IMG/VR virus record: IMGVR_UViG_3300009149_000150
Location: 1 to 33,567 of that record
Reading direction: 5' to 3' (one strand)
Length of the DNA stretch: 33,567 nucleotides
Source of the DNA: a virus
Shown here: positions 1,952-32,318 of the stretch, one piece after another
Numbering within the stretch: the first letter of the stretch is position 1
Layout of the letters: every line of letters begins with the position of its first letter
Made by a program: the position numbers and the translations under genes
The notes under the pieces: generated by a model
The model's database searches: none
The model's input: only the letters and a program-made list of their open reading frames with translations
Told to the model about the DNA's origin: nothing

Positions 1952-2002
1952 AAAAAATTAATTAAAAAAAGTTTTTAAGTTTTTCATCTGTTTCTTTCTA
2001 TA

Positions 2003-2045
2003 GGTTGGCGCACAAAAAAAGGTATCGCAAAATACGATACCCTCA
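2003..2045 (+). ncRNA. class B short RNA B1 (candidate)
   Basis: Plus-strand promoter: TTAAGTT (1975-1981), 16 bp, CTATA (1998-2002), then GGTTGGC (2003-2009). The transcript would run into the GGTATCG/CGATACC hairpin that is also the endolysin terminator on the other strand. No ORF is present. Confidence 0.45.
2014..2041 (-). terminator. intrinsic terminator of the endolysin gene
   Basis: Minus strand: GGGTATCG / CGATACC stem, then TTTTTTT. It lies 24 bp past the endolysin stop codon. Confidence 0.85.
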
Positions 2046-2064
2046 AATAACTTTTAATTAACTA

Positions 2065-2520
2065 TTAACTAAAGTATAGATCAGATTCTGCCTGGCGTCT
2101 TTTTGTCAGGCCTTTTAATGCTCTTCCCCCAGCTTTATTCCACCTAAGGAATTCCTGTGCGATTGTTGGATCATTAGGGTTTACGTTTGCTTTCTTTAGA
2201 AGTGTGCTGCTTTTTAAATTTGCAGGACCTAAGTTGTAACAGAAGCTCACCAGGGCGTCAAATTGATTCTGGTTGATGTCATCTCTACAATATGAGTCAA
2301 CATATCTCTCAAAGCCCTTAAGAGAGTCTAATAACAGCTCGCTTGCTCTTTGTTCTGTGATTGAAGGGTCTGTAAGTTTAACCTTTTTACCATTCTCATA
2401 GAATGTTGATCCGTATCCAACGGTGGGCACATTTGCAGGGCACAGGTATGGCTTTAGTTTTAATCCCTCAAAAGACTTTATCAGATTTAATCCTTTGGTT
2501 CCAATTTTTGTGATTTTCAT
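2065..2520 (-). CDS. phage endolysin, GH24 lysozyme (muramidase)
   Basis: 151 residues. It would hydrolyse the MurNAc-GlcNAc bond of host peptidoglycan at lysis. The catalytic triad reads E18-x8-C27-x5-T33, the E-C-T form of the T4-type family found in P1/P21 endolysins. The substrate-cleft motif VGYGST follows directly, and FDALVSFCYNLGP and FLRWNKAGGRALKGL are further family motifs. There is no obvious signal-anchor, so export probably depends on a holin outside the window. The gene has its own terminator but no class A or ECF-like promoter upstream. It sits just after the tRNA terminator, so a different, perhaps late, promoter within 2521-2612 is implied. Confidence 0.95.
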   Translation of the reverse strand: MKITKIGTKGLNLIKSFEGLKLKPYLCPANVPTVGYGSTFYENGKKVKLTDPSITEQRASELLLDSLKGFERYVDSYCRDDINQNQFDALVSFCYNLGPANLKSSTLLKKANVNPNDPTIAQEFLRWNKAGGRALKGLTKRRQAESDLYFS

Positions 2521-2580
2521 ATTATAATATTTTATAAATAAATAATATGAATTTAAGTTTTTTAGTTTTTTCTTTCTATA

Positions 2581-2643
2581 GGTTGGCTTTTGGGGATGAG
2601 GTTTTGGGGAATAAAAAAAGTGACCAGGTTATCTGATCACTCT
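2581..2643 (+). ncRNA. class B short RNA B2 (candidate)
   Basis: Plus-strand promoter: TTAAGTT (2553-2559), 16 bp, CTATA (2576-2580), then GGTTGGC (2581-2587). It points at the terminator of the tRNA pair. No ORF is present. Confidence 0.45.
2613..2642 (-). terminator. intrinsic terminator of the tRNA-Arg/tRNA-Leu unit
   Basis: Minus strand: AGTGATCAG/CTGGTCACT stem, then TTTTTTT, right after the tRNA-Leu 3' end. Confidence 0.8.
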
Positions 2644-2645
2644 TG

Positions 2646-2727
2646 TACTCTGGGAGGGACTCGAACCCTCACACCTTGCGGCACTGCGCCCTTAACGCAG
2701 CATGTCTACCAATTCCATCACCAAAGC
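2646..2727 (-). tRNA. tRNA-Leu, anticodon AAG
   Basis: 82 nt and class II. The acceptor is GCTTTGG/CCAGAGT with discriminator A. The D-arm region carries GGAATTGGTAGAC, typical of Leu. The anticodon stem is CTGCG/CGCAG with loop TTAAGGG, giving AAG at 2691-2693. There is a long variable arm, and the T-arm is GAGGG-TTCGAGT-CCCTC. CCA is not encoded. An A34 Leu tRNA is unusual for a bacterial system, where GAG normally reads CUU/CUC. Confidence 0.88.
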
Positions 2728-2733
2728 ATATTG

Positions 2734-2807
2734 TGATCCCGAAAGGATTCAAACCTTTGACCTATTCATTAGAAGTGAATTGCTCTATTCAGCTGAGCTA
2801 CGGAACC
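2734..2807 (-). tRNA. tRNA-Arg, anticodon TCT
   Basis: 74 nt. Acceptor GGTTCCG/CGGGATC with two wobble pairs and discriminator A. D-arm GCTC/GAGC. Anticodon stem ATTCA/TGAAT with loop CTTCTAA, giving TCT, which reads AGA, a codon favoured in AT-rich phage genes. T-arm AAAGG/CCTTT. CCA is not encoded. Co-transcribed with tRNA-Leu, 6 nt apart. Confidence 0.92.
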
Positions 2808-2821
2808 AAAAAACTTATGTG

Positions 2822-2829
2822 CAAATATA
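2822..2829 (-). promoter_or_regulatory. host-type -7 element (TAnnTTTG) for the tRNA pair
   Basis: TATATTTG on the minus strand, 15 bp upstream of tRNA-Arg, fits the Bacteroidota -7 consensus TAnnTTTG. No clear -33 TTG is seen at the right distance. Confidence 0.45.
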
Positions 2830-2843
2830 ATAAAAAAATTTAA

Positions 2844-3260
2844 TTAATGCACGCATCTAATATTTTGATCAAAAAGAATTCTACCTCTGTCACCTGGTAA
2901 CTCCTGAAACAGAGAGAAATTACCGCTTTCTCTTTGCCATAAAATATATAATTCTTTTTGACTCGTGTGTGAATTTAAAACCGTGAACTGTGTTACGACT
3001 TCACCTAATATTTTATCTTTAGCCTGTACCATAGAAATAACCTTACTTCTAAATTCTTCATTTGAATCTGGGAAGTTTCGGACGAAAAGACTATCATCAA
3101 ATGAAATTGTAAAATTTTGACGCATGCTTTCACTATCAAAAAATTCACCATTCCTATCAAGGAACACATCTGTTCGTGAGTTAATAATTATTTGAGAACT
3201 TGACTCTGAATCCATACCAATAAATAAAATTGTTGTGGCAAATATAAGTAATTTTATCAT
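2844..3260 (-). CDS. exported protein of unknown function
   Basis: 138 residues. An N-terminal hydrophobic stretch (residues 3-16) preceded by a lysine reads as a signal peptide. The mature part is hydrophilic and contains a FTISFDDSLFVRNFPD segment. I do not recognise it. It is the second small exported protein in this part of the window. A class A promoter at 3286-3313 lies directly upstream. Confidence 0.72.
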   Translation of the reverse strand: MIKLLIFATTILFIGMDSESSSQIIINSRTDVFLDRNGEFFDSESMRQNFTISFDDSLFVRNFPDSNEEFRSKVISMVQAKDKILGEVVTQFTVLNSHTSQKELYILWQRESGNFSLFQELPGDRGRILFDQNIRCVH

Positions 3261-3285
3261 TAAAGTAAATTTGTTTGTTTTTATT

Positions 3286-3313
3286 TATAGAAATTAATTG
3301 GGGCTAAACTTAA
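3286..3313 (-). promoter_or_regulatory. class A promoter
   Basis: TTAAGTT (3307-3313), 16 bp, CTATA; serves gene 2844-3260. The -35 contains the stop codon of gene 3310-4167 and lies in the loop of a GGGGCTAAA/TTTAGCCCC hairpin (3299-3327). Confidence 0.8.
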
Positions 3314-4167
3314 ATATTTTTTAGCCCCTCAACCAATTTGTCCACATCAAACTTATAAGGAATCGTCACCTTTGAATTTGTGAACACAACTTCAGAGTTA
3401 TGTTCATAAGCTCCAAGTTTCAATTCAATCCCATTCTCATATGTAAGTGTGAATTGACCTTGTGCTATTGAAATCTTAACGCCTTCATTTTTCAAGTGTC
3501 CGAATTTATTTTGGAACGCAGCTTCAATTCTTTGTTGTTGTAAGTCTGCAGCATTTCTACTTTCAATTCTCATGAAAGCTACTTCTGACAATTCAGTCAA
3601 TTTATTCACAACAGACTTAGGGTTTACCATTTTCCCTTTACCATCCCAAGAGTTAATTCCTGTGCCTTGAATTTGCATTTTATGCCCTATTGCACGACTA
3701 CTATACTTTGGGGTAATTGGAGTTGCAATAACATGGAATGAATGCCCTTCAGGAACTTTTCCTGTGTATGAAAGTTTTATGTCATATGAATATGAATCAA
3801 GAGTAACCTTTTCTTTGGGCTTCACTCTACTTTTTATCCTTCCTTCTTTATCGTAAAGCATTGTAATCTCATACCCGTCACTGTCAAGTTCAAACAACTC
3901 AATTGTTTCTTTGTTGTTTATTTTCTTGCAATCCAATTTGAATACTGGAGAGACAGCAGTCAAACTTTCAAAGAAACCCTCATAGACTTTCTTTTTGTTT
4001 TCAGCATCTGTTTGAGTTCTCTCAATACTTTGCTCATGACGTTTAATTTTTTCTGTCTTGTAATGGTCGTAGGAAGTGCGCAATGCTTCTGCCTTTGCTT
4101 TTTCCTCTGCTCTCTTTTGCTCAATGAGAGTTAGTTCTTCTGCGGTTAGTGTGATTGTGTGTGCCAT
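3310..4167 (-). CDS. coiled-coil protein of unknown function
   Basis: 285 residues. Residues 8-65 are a charged, Glu/Lys/Ala-rich helix likely to form a coiled coil. The rest is a mixed soluble domain, including GHKMQIQGTGINSWDGKGKM. No transmembrane segment. I do not recognise the family. A composite ECF-like/class A promoter at 4190-4226 ties it to the sigma-linked gene set. Its stop codon lies inside the -35 of the next promoter. Confidence 0.75.
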   Translation of the reverse strand: MAHTITLTAEELTLIEQKRAEEKAKAEALRTSYDHYKTEKIKRHEQSIERTQTDAENKKKVYEGFFESLTAVSPVFKLDCKKINNKETIELFELDSDGYEITMLYDKEGRIKSRVKPKEKVTLDSYSYDIKLSYTGKVPEGHSFHVIATPITPKYSSRAIGHKMQIQGTGINSWDGKGKMVNPKSVVNKLTELSEVAFMRIESRNAADLQQQRIEAAFQNKFGHLKNEGVKISIAQGQFTLTYENGIELKLGAYEHNSEVVFTNSKVTIPYKFDVDKLVEGLKNI

Positions 4168-4189
4168 GTTTATTTATATGTTTAATTGT

Positions 4190-4226
4190 TTATACGGATA
4201 TAGAAACAAAAAGTTACAGAACTTAA
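4190..4226 (-). promoter_or_regulatory. composite ECF-like + class A promoter
   Basis: ECF-like: TGTAAC (4213-4218), 16 bp, CGTATAA (4190-4196). Class A: TTAAGTT (4220-4226), 16 bp, CTATA (4199-4203). Serves gene 3310-4167. Confidence 0.75.
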
Positions 4227-4245
4227 AAAAAAATTATCTTAAAAT

Positions 4246-4276
4246 AAAAAAACCCAAGAGGTGGCAACTCCTGGGT
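4246..4276 (-). terminator. intrinsic terminator of the candidate small RNA
   Basis: Minus strand: 9-bp stem ACCCAGGAG/CTCTTGGGT with one wobble pair, followed by TTTTTT. Confidence 0.85.
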
Positions 4277-4331
4277 CATTTAACATTATGACAGAGACTA
4301 ACAAACAACAAGCTTATCTCTGTGTCTTATA
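4246..4331 (-). ncRNA. candidate ECF-controlled small RNA
   Basis: A well-formed ECF-like promoter (4337-4365) is followed by about 85 nt without an ORF of note. That stretch holds a CAGAGA...TCTCTG stem and a strong terminator (ACCCAGGAG/CTCTTGGGT plus T-run). The next gene to the left, 3310-4167, has its own promoter beyond the terminator. The simplest reading is a stand-alone small RNA. The terminator may also end transcripts of gene 4361-5077. Confidence 0.5.
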
Positions 4332-4336
4332 TCTTA

Positions 4337-4365
4337 CTATACGGAATAAGAATAAAAAGGTTACA
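4337..4365 (-). promoter_or_regulatory. ECF-like promoter of the candidate small RNA
   Basis: TGTAAC (4360-4365), 16-bp spacer, CGTATAG (4337-4343). The -35 contains the stop codon of gene 4361-5077. No class A motif overlaps it. Confidence 0.65.
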
Positions 4366-5077
4366 GTTCTGTATTATCTTTTTTTTCTGATTCACCGCTT
4401 CCGCCTTTTTTCTTTGTATCTTTCTCAGCAATATTATCACGTATTGAAGCTGCCCACAACCAATCTTCTGCATCAACAGCCAGTTTCAGTTCTGCTTTTA
4501 ATTCTCTTACACTTAAAGTATCGAGCATTTCCTGCTTGGTCATTTTCTTTCCTTTAAACTCCTTTTGAGAATTGAGCATTTTATCGATAAGATTTTTTCT
4601 GATCTCATTCATTTCTTCTGAGTTTTTAAAGTCGCCTTGAAATATTGGATTATCTGGATCACTTGCATCATACAGCGATATTGATCCTGTAACATCATCA
4701 TTATCCATATCCATTCCTGGCTGTTTGCCGAATAGATTTTTAAGTATATCTCCAAAAGACGCTGCTGGCTTTGGGCCTACACCATTTACTTTAGTCTTAA
4801 GTAAGTGTAAAACTCCTTTTGCTATTGTTTTATTTTGATCTCTAATTTCTGACAATAGATTTACTATTGCTATCAAGAACAATAAAAGTATTCCAGATGT
4901 GAAATACATTAAGTCTAAAGTTGTTAGATTGTATTCTGTGAAGAAAGCTCTGAGCAAGTTAAATATCCCCAATGCAGTAAAACATAGAGAAGAAACAACA
5001 AGGGTAATACCTAGAAAAGCTACAATAATTTTATTTGTTTTCTTCTCTTTTGAGATTGGGTTTAAATTTGAAATCAT
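4361..5077 (-). CDS. two-TM membrane protein with UVR-like tail
   Basis: 238 residues. Two hydrophobic helices lie at about 17-39 and 53-75, then a long cytoplasmic-looking part. Near the C-terminus (about 192-217) the pattern ELKAELKLAVDAEDW..AASIRDNI resembles the UVR motif (UvrB/UvrC interaction helix pair), which also occurs outside repair proteins. The last 20 residues are Lys/Glu/Ser-rich. I cannot assign a function. It is the only gene here with a full host-type promoter (5099-5129), so it may be expressed early by host RNA polymerase. Confidence 0.78.
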   Translation of the reverse strand: MISNLNPISKEKKTNKIIVAFLGITLVVSSLCFTALGIFNLLRAFFTEYNLTTLDLMYFTSGILLLFLIAIVNLLSEIRDQNKTIAKGVLHLLKTKVNGVGPKPAASFGDILKNLFGKQPGMDMDNDDVTGSISLYDASDPDNPIFQGDFKNSEEMNEIRKNLIDKMLNSQKEFKGKKMTKQEMLDTLSVRELKAELKLAVDAEDWLWAASIRDNIAEKDTKKKGGSGESEKKDNTEL

Positions 5078-5098
5078 TTATATAAAAATTGTTTGATA

Positions 5099-5129
5099 CA
5101 AATTTAAATTTTTTTTTTAAAAATAGCAA
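5099..5129 (-). promoter_or_regulatory. host-type (Bacteroidota vegetative) promoter
   Basis: TTG (5127-5129), 20-bp spacer, TAAATTTG (5099-5106) on the minus strand. This matches the Bacteroidota consensus TTG-N19-21-TAnnTTTG, and no phage-type motif is present. It serves gene 4361-5077. Confidence 0.6.
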
Positions 5130-5134
5130 GTTTT

Positions 5135-5392
5135 TTATTCTATTTCGTCCTGCATTTTATTGTATATATTTTGAATCTCAGTTTTTGCATCTTCTATGTC
5201 CTGATCATAAGCTGTGACTTCATCGACATAAAACATAAGTTCACTGGTAATCTCCAGGACGTCGTATGCGTCGCAAACTTGCTTAACATCCCGATAGAAA
5301 GAGTCTAGTGCGTCATTTAAGTTGTGGTCTTCTAGCAAATAGCATAAATCCACAATCTCATCAAACAACGCTTTTGCTTCTTTAAGAGTCAT
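5135..5392 (-). CDS. small helical acidic protein, unknown
   Basis: 85 residues, almost wholly predicted helix from its heptad-like Leu/Ile/Val spacing, and strongly acidic (C-terminus YNKMQDEIE). I do not recognise it. It follows the sigma-factor terminator. No class A or ECF-like promoter is visible between that terminator and its ATG, so its promoter is unclear. Confidence 0.7.
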   Translation of the reverse strand: MTLKEAKALFDEIVDLCYLLEDHNLNDALDSFYRDVKQVCDAYDVLEITSELMFYVDEVTAYDQDIEDAKTEIQNIYNKMQDEIE

Positions 5393-5419
5393 CTTTTAAA
5401 TTTCTCTTAAATAGAATAC

Positions 5420-5453
5420 AAAAAAGAAAAACCCAATCTTTTGAATTGGGTTC
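5420..5453 (-). terminator. intrinsic terminator of the sigma gene
   Basis: Minus strand: AACCCAAT/ATTGGGTT stem with loop TCAAAAG, then TTTCTTTTTT. It lies 22 bp past the sigma stop codon. Confidence 0.85.
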
Positions 5454-5474
5454 TTAAATTATATGCTTTATACC

Positions 5475-6125
5475 CTAGGCTTTAAATCCTTGTCTGTCTA
5501 AAATATTTCTCAAAGAAATTTTTGCTCTATGTAACAAAACTTTTACTGAACTATTTGAAATATTCATTTCATCTGAAATTTCTTTGTATGACTTTTCTTC
5601 CAAATAATAAAGAGTTAAAACTTTTTTGTGGTCTTCTCTTTTCAATTTGTTCAAGGCATTCAAAAGTTCAAGAACTCTTTCTTTTCTAATCATTAAATCG
5701 CTTGAATCATTTGCGTTATTATCTGCAATTTGGAATTTAGGAACATTTTCATCTGAATCGTTGTTTTTAGTACTATTATCAAACAAAGAATCTATACTTA
5801 ATGTATCTTTGTTTGCTCGTGACCTAAGGTGGTCTATCAAAACATTTTTTGAAATTCTATGAATCCAAGTTGAAAGTGCCGCTTTTTCCGCTGAATAAGA
5901 ATCAATGTTTATATGAACTTTCATAAACACCTCTATCATCAAATCCTTTGCAGTTTCTCCATCAGAGAACAATGCTTTGTTGAAGAAATTAAAAATCAAT
6001 GGTTTAAATTTTTTAAACAACAACTCAAAACCTGCCTCCTTTTCTGCTTTTGAACCAAGTTTAATCATTGACAAAATCTTGTTGTTCAACTCTGCTGACT
6101 TCTCTTTCTCTTTTAACTCTCTCAT
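5475..6125 (-). CDS. ECF-like sigma-70 family RNA polymerase sigma factor
   Basis: 216 residues. Region 2 spans about 33-103 (FKKFKPLIFNFFNKALF, the KDLMIEVFMKV helix, and the ALSTWIHRISKNVLIDHLR -10-binding part). An acidic Asn/Asp-rich linker follows (about 110-145). Region 4 is at about 152-210, with helix-turn-helix YKEISDEMNISNSSVKVLLHRA. There is no region 1 or 3, the ECF layout. It would redirect host RNA polymerase to phage promoters. Its own upstream region carries a composite ECF-like/class A promoter (6149-6185), so auto-activation is likely. Eight ECF-like promoters of identical spacing occur in the window. Which promoter class it reads is inference. Confidence 0.9.
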   Translation of the reverse strand: MRELKEKEKSAELNNKILSMIKLGSKAEKEAGFELLFKKFKPLIFNFFNKALFSDGETAKDLMIEVFMKVHINIDSYSAEKAALSTWIHRISKNVLIDHLRSRANKDTLSIDSLFDNSTKNNDSDENVPKFQIADNNANDSSDLMIRKERVLELLNALNKLKREDHKKVLTLYYLEEKSYKEISDEMNISNSSVKVLLHRAKISLRNILDRQGFKA

Positions 6126-6148
6126 CTGTTTATGTGTTTAATTGTTTA

Positions 6149-6185
6149 TTATACGTTTATAGAAGATAAATGTTACAAAACTTAA
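6149..6185 (-). promoter_or_regulatory. composite ECF-like + class A promoter of the sigma gene
   Basis: ECF-like: TGTAAC (6172-6177), 16 bp, CGTATAA (6149-6155). Class A: TTAAGTT (6179-6185), 16 bp, CTATA (6158-6162). The region is also coding: it gives the last codons and the stop of the endonuclease gene. Confidence 0.75.
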
Positions 6186-7077
6186 AAACTTTTTTTATTT
6201 TTTTTAATCGATCAATAATATTTTCATCATATTTTATTCTCTCTAGACTTATATTATGTTTAAAACAAAAATTGTTTTTAAACTCATCTCTTTTTTTGTT
6301 TTCCAACAAAGTGTTTTCTCCTCCAAAATGTTCAATCGGATGATAATGTTGTTCTCCATCAAATTCAATACATAAATTATAATCAGGCAAGTAAAAATCA
6401 AAATATAATTGCCTTTTAAATTTACAGTTGTTAAAAGTTTTTTGTTTTTTAAAATTTATTTTTTGTTCTACCAACCATTTACTTATTTCCCTCTCTCCTT
6501 TTGATTCTTTACAACTTGCACACCCAATACCAGCCAAATGACTTCCAGCTCCCTGCAAAAACTCGCCATGCATTGGACATATTATTATAACTTTTTGATA
6601 ATGATTAATGTATTCAACTAAAGAATAATTATACTTATTATCATGTATGTTTTTTGATCTATCTATAAATTCTGTAGTAGTCAATTTTTTACTACCTGAA
6701 CAAGACCTACAACCTTTTCCAGATAAGTGACCATTTGGTTTTTGTTCCCAAATTCCATGTATATGGCATAAAATTTTTACTTTAGTTTGTGTATTTGTAT
6801 AATTAACTAAAGAATAATCATAATTCTCACCATGTACTTCTATAGCTTTTTCTATAAACAATTCTTTAGTTAGACTAGTTTTTAAATTAGCTATTTTTCT
6901 ACCACACTGTTTACACCCTTGACCTATTAAATGTTTCTTAGGGGTAATATAAAAATACCCATGTTCTGCACAAAATATACTTACTTTAGTGTATGTGTTT
7001 ATATATTTAACTAGAGAATAATCATATTTTTCTCCATGTATTTCTTTAAACCGTATTTTAATTTCTTCTGTTTTCAT
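6157..7077 (-). CDS. putative homing endonuclease, zinc-ribbon repeats + Vsr/DUF559-type nuclease
   Basis: 306 residues. Three tandem repeats (about 6-59, 74-126, 137-189) share the pattern H-x-x-KYxYSLVxY...KVxIxCxxHG...HLxGxGCxxC, a DUF723-like DNA-binding zinc unit. Residues about 195-300 carry a Vsr/DUF559-type nuclease with FDFYLPDYNLCIEFDGEQHY; D227, E238 and Q243 are candidate active-site residues. Such free-standing enzymes promote their own spread between phages. It has no class A or ECF-like promoter, and its last nine residues and stop are read from the sigma promoter, so it looks inserted there. Confidence 0.85.
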   Translation of the reverse strand: MKTEEIKIRFKEIHGEKYDYSLVKYINTYTKVSIFCAEHGYFYITPKKHLIGQGCKQCGRKIANLKTSLTKELFIEKAIEVHGENYDYSLVNYTNTQTKVKILCHIHGIWEQKPNGHLSGKGCRSCSGSKKLTTTEFIDRSKNIHDNKYNYSLVEYINHYQKVIIICPMHGEFLQGAGSHLAGIGCASCKESKGEREISKWLVEQKINFKKQKTFNNCKFKRQLYFDFYLPDYNLCIEFDGEQHYHPIEHFGGENTLLENKKRDEFKNNFCFKHNISLERIKYDENIIDRLKKIKKVFKFCNIYLL

Positions 7078-12065: not shown

Positions 12066-12116
12066 ATTTTTTTTTTATTTATTTTTTTTTAAGTTTCTTT
12101 TCTTTTTCTTTCTATA

Positions 12117-12180
12117 GGTTGGCGCTTTTGATTTGGGGGCTTTTAAAAAAAAGGAGAGGATCAAATCCCCTCCTGGTTAA
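12117..12180 (+). ncRNA. class B short RNA B3 (candidate)
   Basis: Plus-strand promoter: TTAAGTT (12089-12095), 16 bp, CTATA (12112-12116), then GGTTGGC (12117-12123). It runs into the terminator hairpin of gene 12183-12749. Confidence 0.45.
12145..12173 (-). terminator. intrinsic terminator of gene 12183-12749
   Basis: Minus strand: GGAGGGGA/TCCTCTCC stem around TTTGA, with one wobble pair, followed by TTTTTTTT. Confidence 0.88.
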
Positions 12181-15750: not shown

Positions 15751-15805
15751 AAAAAAGTTTTTATTAAAAACGGATCAGCCAGGGAGAGGTTTTTAATTGC
15801 CAACT
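15750..15805 (-). ncRNA. class B short RNA B7, same strand as genes
   Basis: Minus-strand promoter: TTAAGTT (15827-15833), 16 bp, CTATA (15806-15810), then AGTTGGC (15799-15805). About 55 nt later comes its own terminator: ATTAAAAAC/GTTTTTAAT stem and eight T. There is no ORF. The next gene has a separate class A promoter immediately after. This copy shows a class B unit that does not borrow a gene terminator. Confidence 0.6.
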
Positions 15806-15844
15806 TATAGAAAGTTTTTAAGAAAAAACTTAAAAACCCAGAAC

Positions 15845-17004: not shown

Positions 17005-17064
17005 AAATAACAGCAAAAAAAACTTTTTTTTATTTTTTAAGTTTTGGATCAAAAACTTTCTATA

Positions 17065-17108
17065 GGTTGGCTTGATCCAAGAGACCGCTTTTTTGTTTGT
17101 GGCCAACT
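17065..17108 (+). ncRNA. class B short RNA B4, convergent with B5 (candidate)
   Basis: Plus-strand promoter: TTAAGTT (17037-17043), 16 bp, CTATA (17060-17064), then GGTTGGC (17065-17071). It faces B5 on the other strand across only 44 bp. A T6 stretch inside could end the transcript. Confidence 0.45.
17065..17108 (-). ncRNA. class B short RNA B5, convergent with B4 (candidate)
   Basis: Minus-strand promoter: TTAAGTT (17130-17136), 16 bp, CTATA (17109-17113), then AGTTGGC (17102-17108). Its transcript would be fully complementary to that of B4. Confidence 0.45.
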
Positions 17109-17166
17109 TATAGAAAAAAAATAACTACAAACTTAAATTTAAGTTTTTAAATAAAAACTTTCTATA

Positions 17167-17228
17167 GGTTGGCTTTTAAGAAAACAGATTTAAAAAGAAA
17201 GAGAGGCCATTCAGCCCCTCAGTAATCA
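17167..17228 (+). ncRNA. class B short RNA B6 (candidate)
   Basis: Plus-strand promoter: TTAAGTT (17139-17145), 16 bp, CTATA (17162-17166), then GGTTGGC (17167-17173). Back-to-back with B5; runs into the terminator of gene 17286-17642. Confidence 0.45.
17192..17220 (-). terminator. intrinsic terminator of gene 17286-17642
   Basis: Minus strand: GAGGGGC/GGCCTCTC stem around TGAAT, followed by a T-rich TTCTTTTT. It lies 66 bp past the stop. Confidence 0.7.
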
Positions 17229-22123: not shown

Positions 22124-22183
22124 AAATAACAACAAAAAAAATCTTTTTTTATTTTTTAAGTTCTAGCAACAAATATTTCTATA

Positions 22184-22248
22184 AGTTGGCTTTTGATTGA
22201 TTATGGATCGGCACAAAAAAACCCCACCATTGCTGGCGAGGTCATTCT
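22184..22248 (+). ncRNA. class B short RNA B8 (candidate)
   Basis: Plus-strand promoter: TTAAGTT (22156-22162), 16 bp, CTATA (22179-22183), then AGTTGGC (22184-22190). A GGATC and an A-run precede the hairpin shared with the terminator of gene 22284-22646. Confidence 0.5.
22214..22241 (-). terminator. intrinsic terminator of gene 22284-22646
   Basis: Minus strand: CCTCGCC/GGTGGGG stem with AGCAAT loop, then TTTTTTT. Confidence 0.85.
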
Positions 22249-25129: not shown

Positions 25130-25169
25130 AAAAAGAATTATTTAAGTTTTTAAAATAAATCTTTCTATA

Positions 25170-25238
25170 GGTTGGCTTTTGATTGGGGGGGTCAAAAAGA
25201 TCACAAAAAAACCCCACCATTCCTGGTGAGGTCATTCT
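25170..25238 (+). ncRNA. class B short RNA B9 (candidate)
   Basis: Plus-strand promoter: TTAAGTT (25142-25148), 16 bp, CTATA (25165-25169), then GGTTGGC (25170-25176). It ends at the hairpin that terminates gene 25258-25563. Its hairpin region is nearly identical to that of B8. Confidence 0.5.
25204..25231 (-). terminator. intrinsic terminator of gene 25258-25563
   Basis: Minus strand: CCTCACC/GGTGGGG stem, AGGAAT loop, TTTTTTT. Confidence 0.88.
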
Positions 25239-27344: not shown

Positions 27345-27372
27345 TATAGAAAGTTTTGTGGGGAGAACTTAA
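27345..27372 (-). promoter_or_regulatory. class A promoter
   Basis: TTAAGTT, 16 bp, CTATA; drives 27110-27325 and 26854-27099. Confidence 0.85.
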
Positions 27373-27376
27373 AAAA

Positions 27377-27661
27377 TTACATTACCAAATAAACTTGGTT
27401 AATTTTCAATCTTTCATCTAAATGAACCTCAAAGTATTCATCATTTTGTTCGTTGCCACAAAAAAAGAAAATGTGAGAATCTTTTAAACCAGTTTCTTCA
27501 TCCATATTGTATTCATCAGTTAATCTTTGAAAATAACCCTCAAATCCCTCAACTCTTATTCTATCAAAGAATTTTGCCGTTTGTAATTCTCTGTTATTTT
27601 TAAATTCTTCAACCAACTTTACATGAAAATTTGTTGTAACCAAAGGTAAGTGTCCTGCCAT
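27377..27661 (-). CDS. small hypothetical protein, second gene of operon
   Basis: 94 residues (MAGHLPLVTTNFHVKLVEEF; DSHIFFFCGNEQNDEYFEVH). Unknown. No promoter directly upstream. It follows the 26-residue membrane protein gene by 31 bp and is probably driven by 27791-27818. Confidence 0.7.
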   Translation of the reverse strand: MAGHLPLVTTNFHVKLVEEFKNNRELQTAKFFDRIRVEGFEGYFQRLTDEYNMDEETGLKDSHIFFFCGNEQNDEYFEVHLDERLKINQVYLVM

Positions 27662-27692
27662 AATATTTTTGTAAATTTAATAATGTAACATT

Positions 27693-27773
27693 CTAACAAT
27701 CCCAATTATCAGGATTAAACCCTCCACAAAATATCCCAACAAATAAAGCTAATATAATAAAAATTAATCCCAT
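27693..27773 (-). CDS. 26-residue membrane microprotein
   Basis: A single hydrophobic helix (about residues 2-17, GLIFIILALFVGIFCG) followed by GFNPDNWDC at the C-terminus. The gene has a full class A promoter (27791-27818) and the usual promoter-to-ATG distance, which supports it despite its size. It would insert in the inner membrane; two cysteines flank the short polar tail. Function unknown; a role in superinfection exclusion or lysis control would be a guess. Confidence 0.6.
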   Translation of the reverse strand: MGLIFIILALFVGIFCGGFNPDNWDC

Positions 27774-27790
27774 AATCTTTCGTTTTTATT

Positions 27791-27818
27791 TATAGAAAGT
27801 TTTTGTTTAAGAACTTAA
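27791..27818 (-). promoter_or_regulatory. class A promoter
   Basis: TTAAGTT, 16 bp, CTATA; drives 27693-27773 and probably 27377-27661. Confidence 0.85.
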
Positions 27819-27821
27819 AAA

Positions 27822-28121
27822 CTAACAAGAAATAATTCTTACCAATTCAGTTTCAATAATTTCTGCCAAATTATCAACCTGGTCAATCATTTCTTGACTA
27901 ATTTTAAAAATCTGTCTATTGTTTTCATCTGCTTTAATCAATTCAGCCCATTCACTTGCAATCGTTTCAAACACATCTCCACAATATAATTGTTCATTGA
28001 ACTCAACGTCTTTCATCGTTTCTCTGCCGCTCAATTCTTCTAAAACTCCTGGCAATAAATTATCTCTGTGAATGTCGGTTGCTGAAACCACATCAAAACT
28101 TTCTTTTGTGAACTTTCCCAT
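27822..28121 (-). CDS. small acidic helical protein
   Basis: 99 residues (VLEELSGRETMKDVEFNEQL; MIDQVDNLAEIIETELVRII), acidic, mostly helix. Unknown. Class A promoter at 28135-28162. Confidence 0.72.
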   Translation of the reverse strand: MGKFTKESFDVVSATDIHRDNLLPGVLEELSGRETMKDVEFNEQLYCGDVFETIASEWAELIKADENNRQIFKISQEMIDQVDNLAEIIETELVRIISC

Positions 28122-28134
28122 AGTCTTTTTTATT

Positions 28135-28162
28135 TATAGAAATTTTTTTTGAATAAACTTAA
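28135..28162 (-). promoter_or_regulatory. class A promoter
   Basis: TTAAGTT, 16 bp, CTATA; serves gene 27822-28121. The -35 contains the stop codon of gene 28159-28419. Confidence 0.85.
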
Positions 28163-28419
28163 ATTTGTGGCTCTAATTTTTTGCCACTTTTTATTTGCTC
28201 TATTTCACTTTCAGTTGGTCTGTAATGCAATTTAAAGTCTGACTTGTGAAAAGTGTTTATGCTAGGAATTGAAAGTTTTTGGTGAATCTCCATAACCTTT
28301 AAAGAAGAAACTTCTTCATCATCTGCTAACTCATCTACAACAAGGTAAACTTCTGTTTTTTCTTGTTCATTCATTGGTGTATGAAAAACAACAAAATCAA
28401 ATTCTTTTAGTCCGTTCAT
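28159..28419 (-). CDS. small acidic protein, unknown
   Basis: 86 residues from MNGLKEFDFVVFHTPM (ATG 28417-28419); a 32-codon upstream extension is only the promoter and class B region read through. Acidic (VDELADDEEVSSLKVMEIH), basic end. Unknown. Confidence 0.7.
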   Translation of the reverse strand: MNGLKEFDFVVFHTPMNEQEKTEVYLVVDELADDEEVSSLKVMEIHQKLSIPSINTFHKSDFKLHYRPTESEIEQIKSGKKLEPQI

Positions 28420-28438
28420 ATCGTTTCGTTTATATTGG

Positions 28439-28466
28439 TATAGAAATTTTTTGTTTGAGAACTTAA
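28439..28466 (-). promoter_or_regulatory. class A promoter
   Basis: TTAAGTT, 16 bp, CTATA; serves gene 28159-28419. Confidence 0.85.
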
Positions 28467-28506
28467 AAAAAAATCTTTTTAAGTTTTGGATCCATTTCTT
28501 TCTATA

Positions 28507-28575
28507 GGTTGGCAATTTGGAAATTCAGGATCTGCTGAAATAAAAACCCCAACATTTCTGTTGAGGTCTAATTTT
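28507..28575 (+). ncRNA. class B short RNA B10 (candidate)
   Basis: Plus-strand promoter: TTAAGTT (28479-28485), 16 bp, CTATA (28502-28506), then GGTTGGC (28507-28513). Contains GGATC and the CCCCAAC...GTTGAGG hairpin. Confidence 0.5.
28542..28567 (-). terminator. intrinsic terminator of gene 28590-28889
   Basis: Minus strand: CCTCAAC/GTTGGGG, AGAAAT loop, then TTTTTATTT. Confidence 0.85.
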
Positions 28576-28589
28576 ATCTTAAGGAGTTA

Positions 28590-28889
28590 TTACCAATCAA
28601 ATCCCCCCTTAAACTCTACTTTTGTCTTAATCCAACTCATTACCTCATCTGCATAGTAATGTGTCGTCAAATCCTTTAAAAAGTCAATCATTTTGCGTTC
28701 AGCATTTGAATCCGTTGACAGAACTGTTTCTCTATCGAATTCCTTTGCATTTGACTGGTTGCTTTTCTTTGTGTAACCTGCTGAGGTATCCCAATCTTTT
28801 GCAATAATTGAAATAACCTTACCTTTTGTTTCAACGGTAATTATGCCGCCTTTGCAGTATTCTCCAATCTTCCACGTTTTTGTTGCCAT
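28590..28889 (-). CDS. small hypothetical protein
   Basis: 99 residues (MATKTWKIGEYCKGGIITVE; YADEVMSWIKTKVEFKGGFD). Strand-rich start, helical end. Unknown. Class A promoter at 28910-28937. Confidence 0.74.
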   Translation of the reverse strand: MATKTWKIGEYCKGGIITVETKGKVISIIAKDWDTSAGYTKKSNQSNAKEFDRETVLSTDSNAERKMIDFLKDLTTHYYADEVMSWIKTKVEFKGGFDW

Positions 28890-28909
28890 AGTTTCTCTGT
28901 TTATATTAG

Positions 28910-28937
28910 TATAGAAAGAAATTTAGGGAGAACTTAA
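28910..28937 (-). promoter_or_regulatory. class A promoter
   Basis: TTAAGTT, 16 bp, CTATA; serves gene 28590-28889. The -35 lies in the loop of a GGGGGAA/TTCTCCC hairpin (28926-28947) with a weak T-run. Confidence 0.8.
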
Positions 28938-28954
28938 AAATTCCCCCAATTTTT

Positions 28955-29416
28955 TTAAAACCTTTTTGAAACTCTTTCAAAGTCAAGTATTCTGGTAATA
29001 TCTTTAATAATTTCCATTAGGTTTCCACTCACATCAGTAAAGTTAATTAACACTTCAACGTATCCATGTGGCTGTGGAACATCAGCCATAAATCTATCTT
29101 CCCCTTTGCAAGTATCGTATTTTTCAACAATCCAGCCCAAATTCCATTCGGGTCTTGCATCTTTTCTGTAACCTAATACTTTTGTTCTGAATCTGCAACC
29201 ATTTTCATCAGCACTAAAGAATATAGTATCAATGTAGTTACTTTGCTTTTTAATTCGGTAAGTTGTACTATCTTGGTTATCAACATTAGAAACATAAAAA
29301 GTATAAACTTGTTGCAAATCTCCAATAAGTCGTCTTAAGAACTCTTTGTTCTTTTTAATTTTGTTTATTTTTTCAACTTCTGAATTGCCTATTGCTTGTA
29401 ATACTAAATTTTCCAT
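28955..29416 (-). CDS. hypothetical protein
   Basis: 153 residues, helical N-terminus (EVEKINKIKKNKEFLRRLIG), then a strand-rich part with CRFRTKVLGYRKDARPEWNL. Basic at the start. Unknown. Class A promoter at 29436-29463. Confidence 0.73.
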   Translation of the reverse strand: MENLVLQAIGNSEVEKINKIKKNKEFLRRLIGDLQQVYTFYVSNVDNQDSTTYRIKKQSNYIDTIFFSADENGCRFRTKVLGYRKDARPEWNLGWIVEKYDTCKGEDRFMADVPQPHGYVEVLINFTDVSGNLMEIIKDITRILDFERVSKRF

Positions 29417-29435
29417 TTCGTTTCGTTTTTTTATT

Positions 29436-29463
29436 TATAGAAAGTTTTTGTTTAAGAACTTAA
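29436..29463 (-). promoter_or_regulatory. class A promoter
   Basis: TTAAGTT, 16 bp, CTATA; serves gene 28955-29416. Confidence 0.85.
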
Positions 29464-29464
29464 A

Positions 29465-29698
29465 TTATTTTTTAATAACTTTACCAGTGTGTATTGAATT
29501 GCCAAACAAAACACAAACTTTTTCGGCCTCCTCACGGTCATAAAAAACCATTGCTTTGGACTTAACAAAAGAAATATGTTCAGTATAAACATTCATAACG
29601 TCCAATCTATTTGGATCTGTTAAAGAAATTTTTTCATGGAAAGCCATTTTGTCTTCTCCATTAATTCGTGTATTATACTGAATGATAAATTTGTCCAT
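29465..29698 (-). CDS. small basic hypothetical protein
   Basis: 77 residues (MDKFIIQYNTRINGEDKMAF; MVFYDREEAEKVCVLFGNSI), ending KVIKK. Unknown. Class A promoter at 29719-29746. Confidence 0.7.
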   Translation of the reverse strand: MDKFIIQYNTRINGEDKMAFHEKISLTDPNRLDVMNVYTEHISFVKSKAMVFYDREEAEKVCVLFGNSIHTGKVIKK

Positions 29699-29718
29699 AG
29701 TTTCTTCGTTTATATATG

Positions 29719-29746
29719 TATAGAAATAAATGAATCAAGAACTTAA
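29719..29746 (-). promoter_or_regulatory. class A promoter
   Basis: TTAAGTT, 16 bp, CTATA; serves gene 29465-29698. Confidence 0.85.
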
Positions 29747-29806
29747 AAAAAACAACAACAAAAAATCTTTTTTTATTTTTAAGTTTTGAATCTAAATCTT
29801 TCTATA

Positions 29807-29875
29807 GGTTGGCTTTGGTTAGGTGGATCCGCATAAATAAAAAAAATCCCCAACGTTTCTGTTGAGGGTTTTTTC
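29807..29875 (+). ncRNA. class B short RNA B11 (candidate, bidirectional terminator)
   Basis: Plus-strand promoter: TTAAGTT (29779-29785), 16 bp, CTATA (29802-29806), then GGTTGGC (29807-29813). The hairpin CCCCAAC...GTTGAGGG is followed on the plus strand by TTTTTTC, so a defined 3' end of an RNA of about 65-70 nt is plausible here. Contains GGATCC. Confidence 0.55.
29839..29874. terminator. bidirectional intrinsic terminator
   Basis: Stem CCCTCAAC/GTTGGGG with T-runs on both strands. It ends gene 29887-30402 on the minus strand and short RNA B11 on the plus strand. Confidence 0.85.
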
Positions 29876-29886
29876 TATAAACTAAA

Positions 29887-30402
29887 CTATAACTCACTTA
29901 AAATTATGTTTTCAAGGTGTTGAATCGCTTTTTCTAAATTGTTAAATATATTGTTTGGTAGCTTGTTTAAATCTCTTAATTTTAATGTTTTATATTCCTG
30001 AGTAAATTCCATGATTTTACCTTCAGCTAATGAATTATATGTACGAGAATGAGAAAGTATAGTAAGCTGAACTCTATCTCTATAATTTTCTACGCACAAG
30101 AGAATTTTTCCACTTTCTAAAAGTTCTGTCAAACCTAAAGACTTCTGCTCTAAATATGACTTATTTCTACGTTCAATTCTTTCAGAAATAAAAGGGCGAA
30201 TATCTTTTTTATTTGCAATAACAAAATGTCTTTCTCTTGTTGGTATGCAACCCCAGTTATGCCCACCACCAAGTTTAATAACAGTTCTATTTCCCTCCGT
30301 AATTGCATCGGCTAATGTTGTTTTACATATTTGTATAACTTCTCCATTAAAATAGCAAGTGGAATTTGCGAAAATCGTTTGGTTTAATTTTAAATCGTTC
30401 AT
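29887..30402 (-). CDS. hypothetical protein
   Basis: 171 residues. Middle stretch KLGGGHNWGCIPTRERHFVIA, then a basic segment (RPFISERIERRNKSYLEQKS) and a helical C-terminus (NIFNNLEKAIQHLENIIL). Not recognised. Class A promoter at 30422-30449. Confidence 0.74.
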   Translation of the reverse strand: MNDLKLNQTIFANSTCYFNGEVIQICKTTLADAITEGNRTVIKLGGGHNWGCIPTRERHFVIANKKDIRPFISERIERRNKSYLEQKSLGLTELLESGKILLCVENYRDRVQLTILSHSRTYNSLAEGKIMEFTQEYKTLKLRDLNKLPNNIFNNLEKAIQHLENIILSEL

Positions 30403-30421
30403 ATGTTTTTTTTTATATTTT

Positions 30422-30449
30422 TATAGAAAAATACTTAGAAGAAACTTAA
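30422..30449 (-). promoter_or_regulatory. class A promoter
   Basis: TTAAGTT, 16 bp, CTATA; serves gene 29887-30402. Confidence 0.85.
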
Positions 30450-30488
30450 ATTTTTTTTATTTAAGTTTTGGATATAAATCTTTCTATA

Positions 30489-30558
30489 AGTTGGCTTTAA
30501 GTAAACGGATCAATAAAAATCAAAAAAACCCCCAACATTTCTGCTGAGGGTTATTTCT
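30489..30558 (+). ncRNA. class B short RNA B12 (candidate)
   Basis: Plus-strand promoter: TTAAGTT (30461-30467), 16 bp, CTATA (30484-30488), then AGTTGGC (30489-30495). Contains GGATC; the hairpin CCCCCAAC...GCTGAGGG is followed by TTATTTC. Confidence 0.5.
30522..30552 (-). terminator. intrinsic terminator of gene 30592-30765
   Basis: Minus strand: CCCTCAGC/GTTGGGGG with wobble pairs, AGAAAT loop, TTTTTTT. Confidence 0.85.
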
Positions 30559-30591
30559 ATAAACTAAACTATAACTATGAAAACAAAATTC

Positions 30592-30765
30592 TTAATTTTT
30601 TCTTTTTTCTAATGCAATTTTATACTCCTGTAACAATTCATCGTACATTCCTTCATTTACGTTTTTTAACCTATTCAATAAAGGTGCAATTTCAGTGGCT
30701 TCTTTTGTTCCGTTTTTAATTCCATTAATTCCGCCTTTTACTTTTTTAATCAATAAATCTTCCAT
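30592..30765 (-). CDS. small basic protein of 57 residues
   Basis: Begins MEDLLIKKVKGGINGIKNGT, then a helical ATEIAPLLNRLKNVNEGMYD and a Lys-rich end (ALEKRKN). The ATG context AAAGAT-ATG and the class A promoter at 30786-30813 match the neighbouring genes. Unknown. Confidence 0.66.
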   Translation of the reverse strand: MEDLLIKKVKGGINGIKNGTKEATEIAPLLNRLKNVNEGMYDELLQEYKIALEKRKN

Positions 30766-30785
30766 ATCTTTTCGTTTTATATTGT

Positions 30786-30813
30786 TATAGAAATTTTTGC
30801 GGGGAGAACTTAA
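30786..30813 (-). promoter_or_regulatory. class A promoter
   Basis: TTAAGTT, 16 bp, CTATA; serves gene 30592-30765. The -35 contains the stop codon of gene 30810-31028. Confidence 0.85.
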
Positions 30814-31028
30814 ATTTTTTCTGAAAAATAATTTACAACTTCTGGAATGTACTTTTTATAATATGGTTGGTTATCCATACACCAAGACTTTACTTCTTCT
30901 TTTGTCTTAAAAGGTTGTTGCCAAGACTGGCCACGCATTATCATATCAAATTCAGGCTCAAGCTCTTCAATAAAACTTCCAACTGTCCAACCTTCCCAAA
31001 TGTGTTTGTTCAAATTTATATTTGCCAT
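30810..31028 (-). CDS. small hypothetical protein
   Basis: 72 residues, aromatic-rich (HIWEGWTVGSFIEELEPEF; WCMDNQPYYKKYIPEVVNYF). Unknown. Class A promoter at 31048-31075. Confidence 0.7.
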   Translation of the reverse strand: MANINLNKHIWEGWTVGSFIEELEPEFDMIMRGQSWQQPFKTKEEVKSWCMDNQPYYKKYIPEVVNYFSEKI

Positions 31029-31047
31029 TTCTTTTCGTTTATATTGT

Positions 31048-31075
31048 TATAGAAATTTTTGTAGGGAGAACTTAA
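31048..31075 (-). promoter_or_regulatory. class A promoter
   Basis: TTAAGTT, 16 bp, CTATA; serves gene 30810-31028. Confidence 0.85.
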
Positions 31076-31088
31076 AAAATTATTTAAT

Positions 31089-31367
31089 TTAATAACTTAA
31101 AATATAAAAAATACCTCTATTACCACAACCCAAAGAAAGACTATCCGCTTTCAATCTTTTTTGAACATCAATCAAATCAGCAATATCAATCGTTTCTAAG
31201 TTTAGAGTATATACATACACAACATCTTTTTTATTATGTATATTGCGTGTTTTACTTAAATAGGTAATTTCTACAATTCCATAAAACTCTTTGCAAATTT
31301 CTTCAACTGAAATTGGAGTATTTTCTGTTCTATATGTTACCTCAACTTCTCTAATGTTTGTTTTCAT
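31089..31367 (-). CDS. small hypothetical protein
   Basis: 92 residues (MKTNIREVEVTYRTENTPIS; IDVQKRLKADSLSLGCGNRG). Alternating strands and helices with two cysteines. Unknown. Class A promoter at 31387-31414. Confidence 0.72.
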   Translation of the reverse strand: MKTNIREVEVTYRTENTPISVEEICKEFYGIVEITYLSKTRNIHNKKDVVYVYTLNLETIDIADLIDVQKRLKADSLSLGCGNRGIFYILSY

Positions 31368-31386
31368 AGCTCTGTGTTTATACTGT

Positions 31387-31414
31387 TATAGAAATTTTTG
31401 TGGGGAGAACTTAA
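31387..31414 (-). promoter_or_regulatory. class A promoter
   Basis: TTAAGTT, 16 bp, CTATA; serves gene 31089-31367. Confidence 0.85.
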
Positions 31415-31417
31415 AAA

Positions 31418-31693
31418 TTATAAAAAATATCTAAGGTTTTTAATTTCTTTTTTTACATACTTTTCAAAGGAGGTTCCTTTGCCTTTGTATTGTTCTGCTT
31501 CATCTTCCAATAAAGCCGCTGCAATAATTTTTGGTAGTATAAACGTTCTTTCATCCCAAGAATCAATATCAAGAGAACCTGAATTTATTGCTTTATCAAT
31601 TTTATCTTTCATTGCTTTTTGTGAATCTTTTAATAATTCACTTGCTAATCTTTTAAGTTTAGCTTTTTTTCTTTTCTCTTCTAATTTTGACAT
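31418..31693 (-). CDS. small basic helical protein
   Basis: 91 residues. Lys-rich N-terminal helix (MSKLEEKRKKAKLKRLASEL) that could bind nucleic acid, and another basic C-terminal stretch (FEKYVKKEIKNLRYFL). Unknown. Class A promoter at 31714-31741. Confidence 0.72.
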   Translation of the reverse strand: MSKLEEKRKKAKLKRLASELLKDSQKAMKDKIDKAINSGSLDIDSWDERTFILPKIIAAALLEDEAEQYKGKGTSFEKYVKKEIKNLRYFL

Positions 31694-31713
31694 AGTGTTT
31701 CGTTTTATATTGT

Positions 31714-31741
31714 TATAGAAATTTTTATAAAGAAAACTTAA
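31714..31741 (-). promoter_or_regulatory. class A promoter
   Basis: TTAAGTT, 16 bp, CTATA; serves gene 31418-31693. Confidence 0.85.
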
Positions 31742-31742
31742 A

Positions 31743-32132
31743 TTATTTATTCAATAACTCATTTTGTTTTCTCAAATTACTTTCAATATATTTCAAATGG
31801 TGTTCTTCTAATTCATAAACATCAATAGAACGAATTGAGAAAATTGAGCTTTTTTCCGTTGCACGTTCAATAACTTCTTTTGCTTTCAAATAATTTTCAT
31901 CAGAAAGAATGCCTGAAAAATCCATTGGGTGCATATATAAATTTTGTTCCCCTTGAACTCCTTCTGGACAACTGAATGAGCTTGAGCCATCATTCGCAAT
32001 ATCGAATCCTAACTCATTTAGAATGGCCAACACTTCTTCATTAAAAGGTTCACTCAATTCTTCACTCATACCTTTGCCCCACTCATATGGAGAATTTAAT
32101 CTGAAATAAACTTTTTTTAAATCTGTTCTCAT
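31743..32132 (-). CDS. hypothetical protein
   Basis: 129 residues from MRTDLKKVYFRLNSPYEW (ATG 32130-32132); 13 upstream codons are promoter sequence. Contains NDGSSSFSCPEGVQGEQNLY and a helical end. Unknown. Class A promoter at 32153-32180. Confidence 0.73.
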   Translation of the reverse strand: MRTDLKKVYFRLNSPYEWGKGMSEELSEPFNEEVLAILNELGFDIANDGSSSFSCPEGVQGEQNLYMHPMDFSGILSDENYLKAKEVIERATEKSSIFSIRSIDVYELEEHHLKYIESNLRKQNELLNK

Positions 32133-32152
32133 AGTTTCTCTGTTTATATTAA

Positions 32153-32180
32153 TATAGAAATTTCTAATCACAAAACTTAA
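32153..32180 (-). promoter_or_regulatory. class A promoter
   Basis: TTAAGTT, 16 bp, CTATA; serves gene 31743-32132. Confidence 0.85.
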
Positions 32181-32249
32181 AAATAAAATAACTTTTTTTT
32201 AAATTATTTTTTTATCTTTTTTTAAGTTCCTGATCTTTTTCTTTCTATA

Positions 32250-32318
32250 AGTTGGCTTTAAGTGAGCGGATCTATATAAAAAAGAAAAACCCCCACGAAT
32301 TTGTGAGGGTTAAACTCT
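32250..32318 (+). ncRNA. class B short RNA B13 (candidate)
   Basis: Plus-strand promoter: TTAAGTT (32222-32228), 16 bp, CTATA (32245-32249), then AGTTGGC (32250-32256). Very similar to B12 up to the GGATC; ends at the hairpin of the terminator 32285-32310. Confidence 0.5.
32285..32310 (-). terminator. intrinsic terminator of gene 32343-32570
   Basis: Minus strand: CCCTCAC/GTGGGGG, AAATTC loop, TTTTTC. Confidence 0.85.

Follow-up and report, generated by a model that had tools for sequence, protein, structure and literature searches.

Promoters are usually judged by the gene that they drive. A viral DNA of 33,567 nucleotides (IMG/VR record IMGVR_UViG_3300009149_000150, positions 1 to 33,567; hereafter the window) carries a family of promoter-like sites, conserved in three related phages, that drives no gene, although its start sequence is fixed and its back-to-back arrangement is phased. 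What might such sites do? An initial annotation had offered three roles, namely small regulatory RNAs, insulators at the borders of transcription units, and R-loop primers for replication. Here we compare the window with two related contigs, G001 and G002 (76-kb), and weigh these roles along with others.

The core was searched as TTAAG...CTATA, with spacers of 14-24 nucleotides permitted. All 69 exact sites in the window had a spacer of exactly 18, with 58 on the minus strand and 11 on the plus strand; two conserved blocks with fixed spacing upstream of starts constitute an arrangement of the ECF type. Sites with this -35/-10 core (TTAAG-N18-CTATA) and no heptamer are termed class A, and in the window these lie at least 14 nt upstream of ORF starts. 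Class B sites have the heptamer RGTTGGC directly after the core, and include 11 of the 11 plus-strand cores and 2 of the 58 minus-strand cores (Table 1), the same 13 sites as in the initial annotation. The window contains 14 copies of RGTTGGC where 3.6 would be expected; none of 100 shuffles reached 14, and 13 of the 14 copies directly follow a class A core, the exception being the copy at 22464. Class A sites match the heptamer at 0-3 of 7 positions and class B sites at all 7, with no intermediates; by this measure class B is a discrete class that does not grade into class A.

Across the three contigs, an ORF of 50 aa or more begins within 60 nt of 139 of 155 class A sites and of none of 32 class B sites (Fisher 2e-24), and plus-strand ORFs were rejected as class B products on this count. 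The sites had been described as mostly opposed to gene direction, with no protein genes on the plus strand, and we likewise saw no convincing plus-strand gene in the window, where long plus-strand ORFs overlap minus-strand genes. The heptamer also appears dispensable for basic promoter function, as had been suggested, given that class A does without it. By these features class B makes up a further, non-coding set of predicted promoters that share their -35/-10 core with the gene promoters. An ECF-like sigma factor is encoded in all three contigs, the homologues in the relatives being 43% and 35% identical, and class B is probably read by this phage-encoded protein.

Table 1. Class B sites, the terminators that they face, and the candidate sigma factor in the window. 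Gap, distance in bp between back-to-back -35 boxes.
Feature	Position	Strand	Details
Class B	1974..2009	+	-35 TTTAAGTT, -10 TTCTATA, heptamer GGTTGGC 2003-2009; class A at 1951, gap 23; orthologue G001 19034-19069
Class B	2552..2587	+	Faces tRNA-pair terminator; orthologous sites G001 19628, G002 8447
Class B	12088..12123	+	Class A partner at 12065, gap 23; G001 orthologue 30707, gap 22
Class B	15799..15834	-	Gene strand, immediately downstream of terminator
Class B	17036..17071	+	Class A partner at 17004, gap 32; converges on class B 17102-17137
Class B	17102..17137	-	Convergent with 17036-17071; back-to-back class B partner 17138-17173, gap 2
Class B	17138..17173	+	Back to back with class B 17102-17137, gap 2
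Class B	22155..22190	+	Class A partner at 22123, gap 32
Class B	25141..25176	+	Class A partner at 25129, gap 12
Class B	28478..28513	+	Class A partner at 28466, gap 12
Class B	29778..29813	+	Class A partner at 29746, gap 32
Class B	30460..30495	+	Class A partner at 30449, gap 11
Class B	32221..32256	+	Class A partner at 32180, gap 41
Terminator	2018..2044	-	Faced by class B heptamer at 2003
Terminator	2616..2644	-	Follows the tRNA gene pair; faced by class B at 2581
Terminator	12152..12174	-	Faced by class B at 12117
Terminator	17201..17220	-	Faced by class B at 17167
Terminator	22220..22243	-	Faced by class B at 22184
Terminator	25210..25233	-	Faced by class B at 25170
Terminator	28544..28569	-	Faced by class B at 28507
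Terminator	29848..29867	-	Faced by class B at 29807; only one with good T-tract on both strands
Terminator	30527..30552	-	Faced by class B at 30489
Terminator	32288..32311	-	Faced by class B at 32250
ECF-like sigma factor	5475..6125	-	Has only regions 2 and 4; candidate reader for both promoter classes

The transcription start was placed at base 6 after CTATN because 25 class A genes of G002 have their ATG exactly there, with none at bases 1-5 or 7-11. The heptamer would then span about -5 to +2, which makes it part of the promoter DNA and not a tag on the RNA. Transcription from class B probably starts near the heptamer end, and the heptamer is best read as a discriminator and start region that replaces the ACAATATAAAC found after class A cores. 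RNAs with a constant 5' heptamer, as envisaged in the initial annotation, do not fit with a start at this position.

A minus-strand terminator hairpin stands ahead of 10 of the 11 plus-strand class B sites in the window. That these sites face hairpins had been noted before, at a distance of 30-45 nt; the facing was confirmed, and the interval from heptamer end to terminator stem is a little shorter, at 27-34 bp for nine sites and 8 for one. The proposal that class B makes short regulatory or antisense RNAs draws on this layout, in which a complete promoter without an ORF faces a hairpin at near-constant distance and would transcribe the 3' end of the upstream gene in antisense. We consider it unlikely, as the RNA would include just the last 2-3 heptamer bases and the hairpins do not favor a plus-strand RNA. 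Strand energies were compared, since these hairpins fold on either strand and covariation would not separate a plus-strand RNA from a minus-strand terminator; all ten were more stable as minus-strand RNA (mean -13.4 versus -7.7 kcal/mol for plus RNA), and their G-U pairs fall almost only on the minus side. Their T-tracts are on the minus strand, with a plus-strand T-tract at only 1-2 of 11 sites, which argues against an intrinsic terminator belonging to class B and against the earlier suggestion that the hairpin ends a plus-strand RNA.

Nor does the sequence behave as a conserved RNA. The facing hairpins differ from site to site and the stretch after the heptamer differs among class B copies; at three orthologous sites in G001 the heptamer is intact, and two of the three have a changed stretch between heptamer and hairpin. 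Where class B sites converge in pairs, their heptamers are only about 30 nt apart, a further point against such transcripts, and no Rfam family other than tRNA was found in the window. The motif GGATC, reported earlier between heptamer and hairpin, is present downstream of 5 of the 11 plus-strand sites. GATC is enriched at class B overall (20 of 32 sites versus 6 of 155 for class A).

On its other side, class B is positioned with respect to a second promoter. A class A (or class B) promoter lies back to back with class B in a divergent layout at 10 of the 11 plus-strand sites, and in 22 of 24 back-to-back pairs the gap between the -35 boxes is 2, 11-13, 22-23, 32 or 41-42 bp. These gaps are phased at a period of 10 (R = 0.87; p ~1e-4 with related copies counted once). 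Two gaps fall outside the main series, 16 and 92, and the latter is still in phase. One orthologous pair differs by about one turn, with a gap of 23 in the window and 32 in G001. Tandem class A distances are unphased in the window (R 0.17) and in G002 (R 0.12), and give R 0.44 in G001 over 11 distances. The DNA between back-to-back -35 boxes is made up of A-tracts and T-tracts.

Helical phasing, A/T tracts and the divergent layout would all be expected if class B were an upstream partner, with a second polymerase or shared UP-like tracts raising or timing class A expression. We regard this too as improbable. Most class A promoters have no class B partner; for at least one conserved class B site (2552-2587, plus strand) no divergent class A partner was found, and its G001 orthologue likewise lacks one; and such a role leaves the facing terminator unexplained.

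The initial annotation had named loss of the heptamer in close relatives as evidence against its family. The heptamer is instead kept: class B numbers 13 sites in the window, 6 in G001 and 13 in G002, where it has the form [RT]GTTRGC. Beyond these contigs the promoter was hard to trace. It was found only in G001 and G002 of 8 contigs searched, which included the closest by GP88 protein, and in a wider viral collection many contigs had a single chance match to TTTCTATARGTTGGC, with the promoter system present in two contigs only. Matches in a scan of genome contigs came one per contig from unrelated organisms and were taken as chance, and no relative of the conserved protein was found among the contigs scanned. 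BLAST of the class B module against phage records returned weak AT-rich matches only, and the right-hand half of the window had no DNA-level match in the phage collection.

Two further possibilities concern the start region itself. The initial transcribed stretch of class B is enriched in G in the window and G001 (23-25% versus 13-15%), and this, along with the precedent of T4 oriF, a promoter-linked R-loop origin, could suggest replication origins at which promoter-made RNA is kept as a primer. Apart from the G-enrichment, which is lower in G002 (19%), we found no positive evidence for the R-loop primers proposed earlier, and we think them quite improbable: 13 sites in 33 kb would be a large number of origins, rightward-primed leading strands would oppose both gene direction and GC skew, and helical phasing with class A is not predicted. 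A still fainter prospect is that the heptamer forms a hybrid host promoter in which the Bacteroidetes -7 element TAnnTTTG overlaps the phage -10, given that TARGTTGG agrees with TANNTTTG at 7 of 8 positions in the window and G001. Flavobacterium promoters almost always have T at -6 and hardly ever G at -10 or -9 (PMC6847099), whereas none of the 32 class B sites has T at -6 and all 32 have G at -9; a Bacteroidetes primary-sigma promoter (TAHHTTTG) was rejected on these two positions. Host-type promoters were not clearly enriched in these contigs, for which the Bacteroidetes consensus may not be that of the host.

Among the three roles first proposed, insulation at unit borders is the best positional fit. 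The class, its non-coding nature, position, phasing and conservation are all established from sequence, and this anatomy is well supported; from it we infer a function, that class B is a boundary element between transcription units, to which we give somewhat less than an even chance. Class B sites would mark the borders of units. A polymerase loaded there would aim at the upstream unit's terminator, some 30 bp away, and so would have to interfere with polymerase reading through; it would also share a helical face with the next gene's promoter, set back to back with class B. Whether docked or firing, it may reinforce termination of the upstream unit and insulate, perhaps even help, the class A promoter behind it. 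More tentatively, this phage family may use fixed-start non-coding promoters as a polymerase-based boundary that separates single-gene units and is phased with the next promoter.

Several observations count against a boundary role. Four separate terminators in the window have no facing class B, and the two promoters of the gap-2 pair (17102-17137 and 17138-17173) lie so near each other that they could not be occupied together. By standard footprints the class B open complex would meet an oncoming polymerase before the U-tract is finished, so a simple aid to intrinsic termination is not obvious, and the GATC enrichment is left unexplained. If class B is a boundary element, it would provide a simple promoter-based insulation of tightly packed single-gene units, and polymerase interaction across helical turns at divergent promoters would become directly testable.

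Parallels to known systems are partial. Like the two-block promoters of ECF sigma factors, these have two short blocks with rigid spacing, and a sigma factor limited to regions 2 and 4 is encoded nearby here too, its recognition of the sites being predicted. Unlike usual ECF promoters, there are two sub-classes with one core and a different fixed sequence after the -10, and one sub-class drives no gene. The mobile regulatory cassettes (PeSLs) of T4-type phages are repeated modules that pair a terminator hairpin with an early promoter in the spaces between small genes; the window also contains repeated modules (families D12, D16 and D17), some apparently duplicated as units. Unlike in PeSLs, a second promoter here points back towards the terminator and has a conserved start region of its own as well as helical phasing to the first. 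PeSLs were reportedly described by Arbiol et al. in 2010 (cited in PMC4177764). In the bidirectional promoters of Warman, Grainger and colleagues, opposite starts share one symmetric -10 element (PMC12825309). Divergent transcription, here predicted, would likewise arise from compact DNA, but a shared -10 was rejected for our sites, which are two full promoters set back to back by their -35 boxes, with separate -10 elements outside them. Promoters that fire antisense and polymerases that collide head-on at the ends of genes are treated by Brophy and Voigt 2016 (PMC4731013) and reportedly by Wang et al. 2023 (cited in PMC10310618). Class B resembles these in lying at the 3' end of a gene, against the gene and near its terminator, and differs in being a family defined by sequence, whose start sequence and spacing are fixed within one phage group.

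A strict search of the window with the pattern TTAAG-N(14-24)-CTATA returned 69 sites, and the spacer was exactly 18 in every one. These cores fall 58 on the minus strand, which is the coding strand for nearly all genes in the window, and 11 on the plus strand. The heptamer RGTTGGC, which is over-represented in the window (14 observed vs 3.6 expected), directly follows the core at 13 sites, comprising all 11 plus-strand sites and two on the minus strand. These 13 sites (class B) do not intergrade with the gene promoters that have the core alone (class A), and the counts agree with the initial annotation, which had claimed 13 such cores, 11 of them on the plus strand. The same promoter system is carried by two related virus contigs, G001 with 6 class B sites and G002 with 13, where [RT]GTTRGC follows CTATA or CTATT. 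Loss of the heptamer in close relatives, which would have counted against the initial annotation, was not seen: the region common to the window and G001 includes three class B sites, and all are in the same place with the heptamer intact (one with an allowed G-to-A change). Two of these three sites have diverged in the segment that separates heptamer from hairpin.

Class B drives no gene. Across the three contigs, an ORF of 50 or more codons begins no further than 60 nt from the -10 at 139 of 155 class A sites but at 0 of 32 class B sites (Fisher 2e-24), a contrast valid on both strands and in each contig. Of the 11 class B sites on the plus strand of the window, ten face a minus-strand terminator, its stem lying 8 nt from the heptamer end at one site and 27-34 nt at the other nine. 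Each of the ten hairpins folds more stably as minus-strand RNA (mean -13.4 vs -7.7 kcal/mol as plus; Wilcoxon p 0.002), a result somewhat favored by their having been called on the minus strand, and of the G-U pairs 19 are on the minus side against 1 on the plus. Every hairpin has a minus-strand T-tract, while a plus-strand tract is good only at 29867 and weak at 28569. The hairpins are terminators of upstream genes and not, as had been proposed, the 3' ends of plus-strand small RNAs.

In the minus-strand block of G002, 25 class A sites are followed by an ORF whose ATG has its A precisely at base 6 after CTATN, and no site has it at bases 1-5 or 7-11; the plain reading is that these genes probably have leaderless mRNAs with +1 at base 6. 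Unlike these, ATGs in the window are mostly 14-33 bases after the -10, and its class A sites have an almost invariant A at the sixth base, usually preceded by T. With the start position transferred from class A, RGTTGGC would span about -5 to +2; a class B start at the base-5 purine would make this -4 to +3. Most of the heptamer would then be discriminator DNA, with GC or RGC as the first bases of the RNA, which argues directly against a family of RNAs with a constant 5' heptamer.

Class B might still make small or antisense RNA, only activate class A, or prime replication. The simplest account to take in the whole anatomy is a boundary element, in which the terminator of the upstream unit would be followed by a class B promoter aimed back at it and then by the class A promoter of the next unit. 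With ordinary polymerase footprints, a polymerase at class B would overlap another that is ending transcription at the terminator, and the two must therefore interfere; the class B polymerase may raise termination, block readthrough, or help the class A promoter. Convergent class B pairs occur in all three contigs. The one in G001 sits where the plus-strand gene block borders the minus-strand one, and the two in G002 lie at, or close to, the ends of the main minus-strand block; such positions fit a boundary role, although the cases are few. The plus-strand block of G001 has no exact class A promoter, so other promoters must serve it, and its last gene is TnpB-like (OrfB_IS605).

Class B sites are also arranged back to back with another promoter, of class A or class B, at TTAAG-to-TTAAG gaps in the three contigs of 2, 11, 12 (seven times), 13 (four), 16, 22, 23 (twice), 32 (four), 41, 42, and 92. 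These gaps are concentrated at period 10 (circular R = 0.87), with R 0.82 (p about 1e-4) after related copies were collapsed by our own judgement, and R 0.90 (p about 9e-4) in the window alone with three related 32-bp copies counted once. Tandem class A distances have no such phase (R 0.17 in the window, 0.12 in G002, and 0.44 in G001 from only 11 distances). The gap of one orthologous pair differs by almost a full helical turn between the window (23 bp) and G001 (32 bp). This phasing, which is new relative to the initial annotation, suggests that the two promoter complexes, or proteins bound along with them, act on a single face of the DNA.

A GATC is found no more than 38 nt downstream at 20 of 32 class B sites and at only 6 of the 155 class A sites (p 9e-14), mainly in the window and G002 and hardly in G001; the proposed readings do not account for this enrichment. 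Some terminator hairpins are built directly over a class A -35 box, so terminator and next promoter share sequence. A segment repeated between stop codon and terminator is the reverse complement of class A leader-like sequence, and mRNA 3' ends could therefore pair with leaders.

Contigs and features, with coordinates
Feature	Contig	Position or length	Strand	Remarks
Window	IMG/VR virus record	33,567 bp		
G001	IMGVR_UViG_3300016476_001223	30.8 kb		~12 kb common with left of window, roughly 72-87% identity
G002	IMGVR_UViG_3300047678_000276	76.3 kb		more distant
ECF-like sigma	window	5475-6125	minus	regions 2 and 4 only; also encoded in both relatives
Class A with GTAAC or GTTAC in spacer	window	1869, 4226, 6185, 10342, 23061	minus	
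Convergent class B pair	window	17036-17137		
Convergent class B pair	G001	15295/15399		
Convergent class B pairs	G002	1433/1527, 53092/53187		
Gene block without exact class A promoter	G001	1-14000	plus	
Strong GATC enrichment immediately downstream of class B	window	22155-32256		also at G002 sites
N6/N4 DNA methylase	G002	27779-28621	minus	
Terminator hairpins over class A -35 box	window	20495-20514, 20862-20883, 28926-28947, 33110-33134		GGGAGAACTTAAAAATTCTCCC type
Repeated segment before terminator	window	22244-22267, 25234-25257, 29868-29886, 30553-30568, 32312-32328		TCTATAAACKAAAC
tRNA-like gene, four-base anticodon	window	11028-11103		ARAGORN; Rfam supports as tRNA
tRNA-like gene, four-base anticodon	window	22716-22806		ARAGORN

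That class B is a host promoter is contradicted by the Flavobacterium consensus (PMC6847099). A candidate reader of both classes is the ECF-like sigma of the phage, because of its co-occurrence with the promoters and their two-block, fixed-spacing form. One of the class A promoters with GTAAC or GTTAC in the spacer lies before the sigma gene, and most of this subset have CGTATA downstream. These sequences are a possible operator. The sigma's matches in the phage collection share about 24-29% identity with it; among them are sigma factors from crAss-like phages and places in Prevotella Lak phages.
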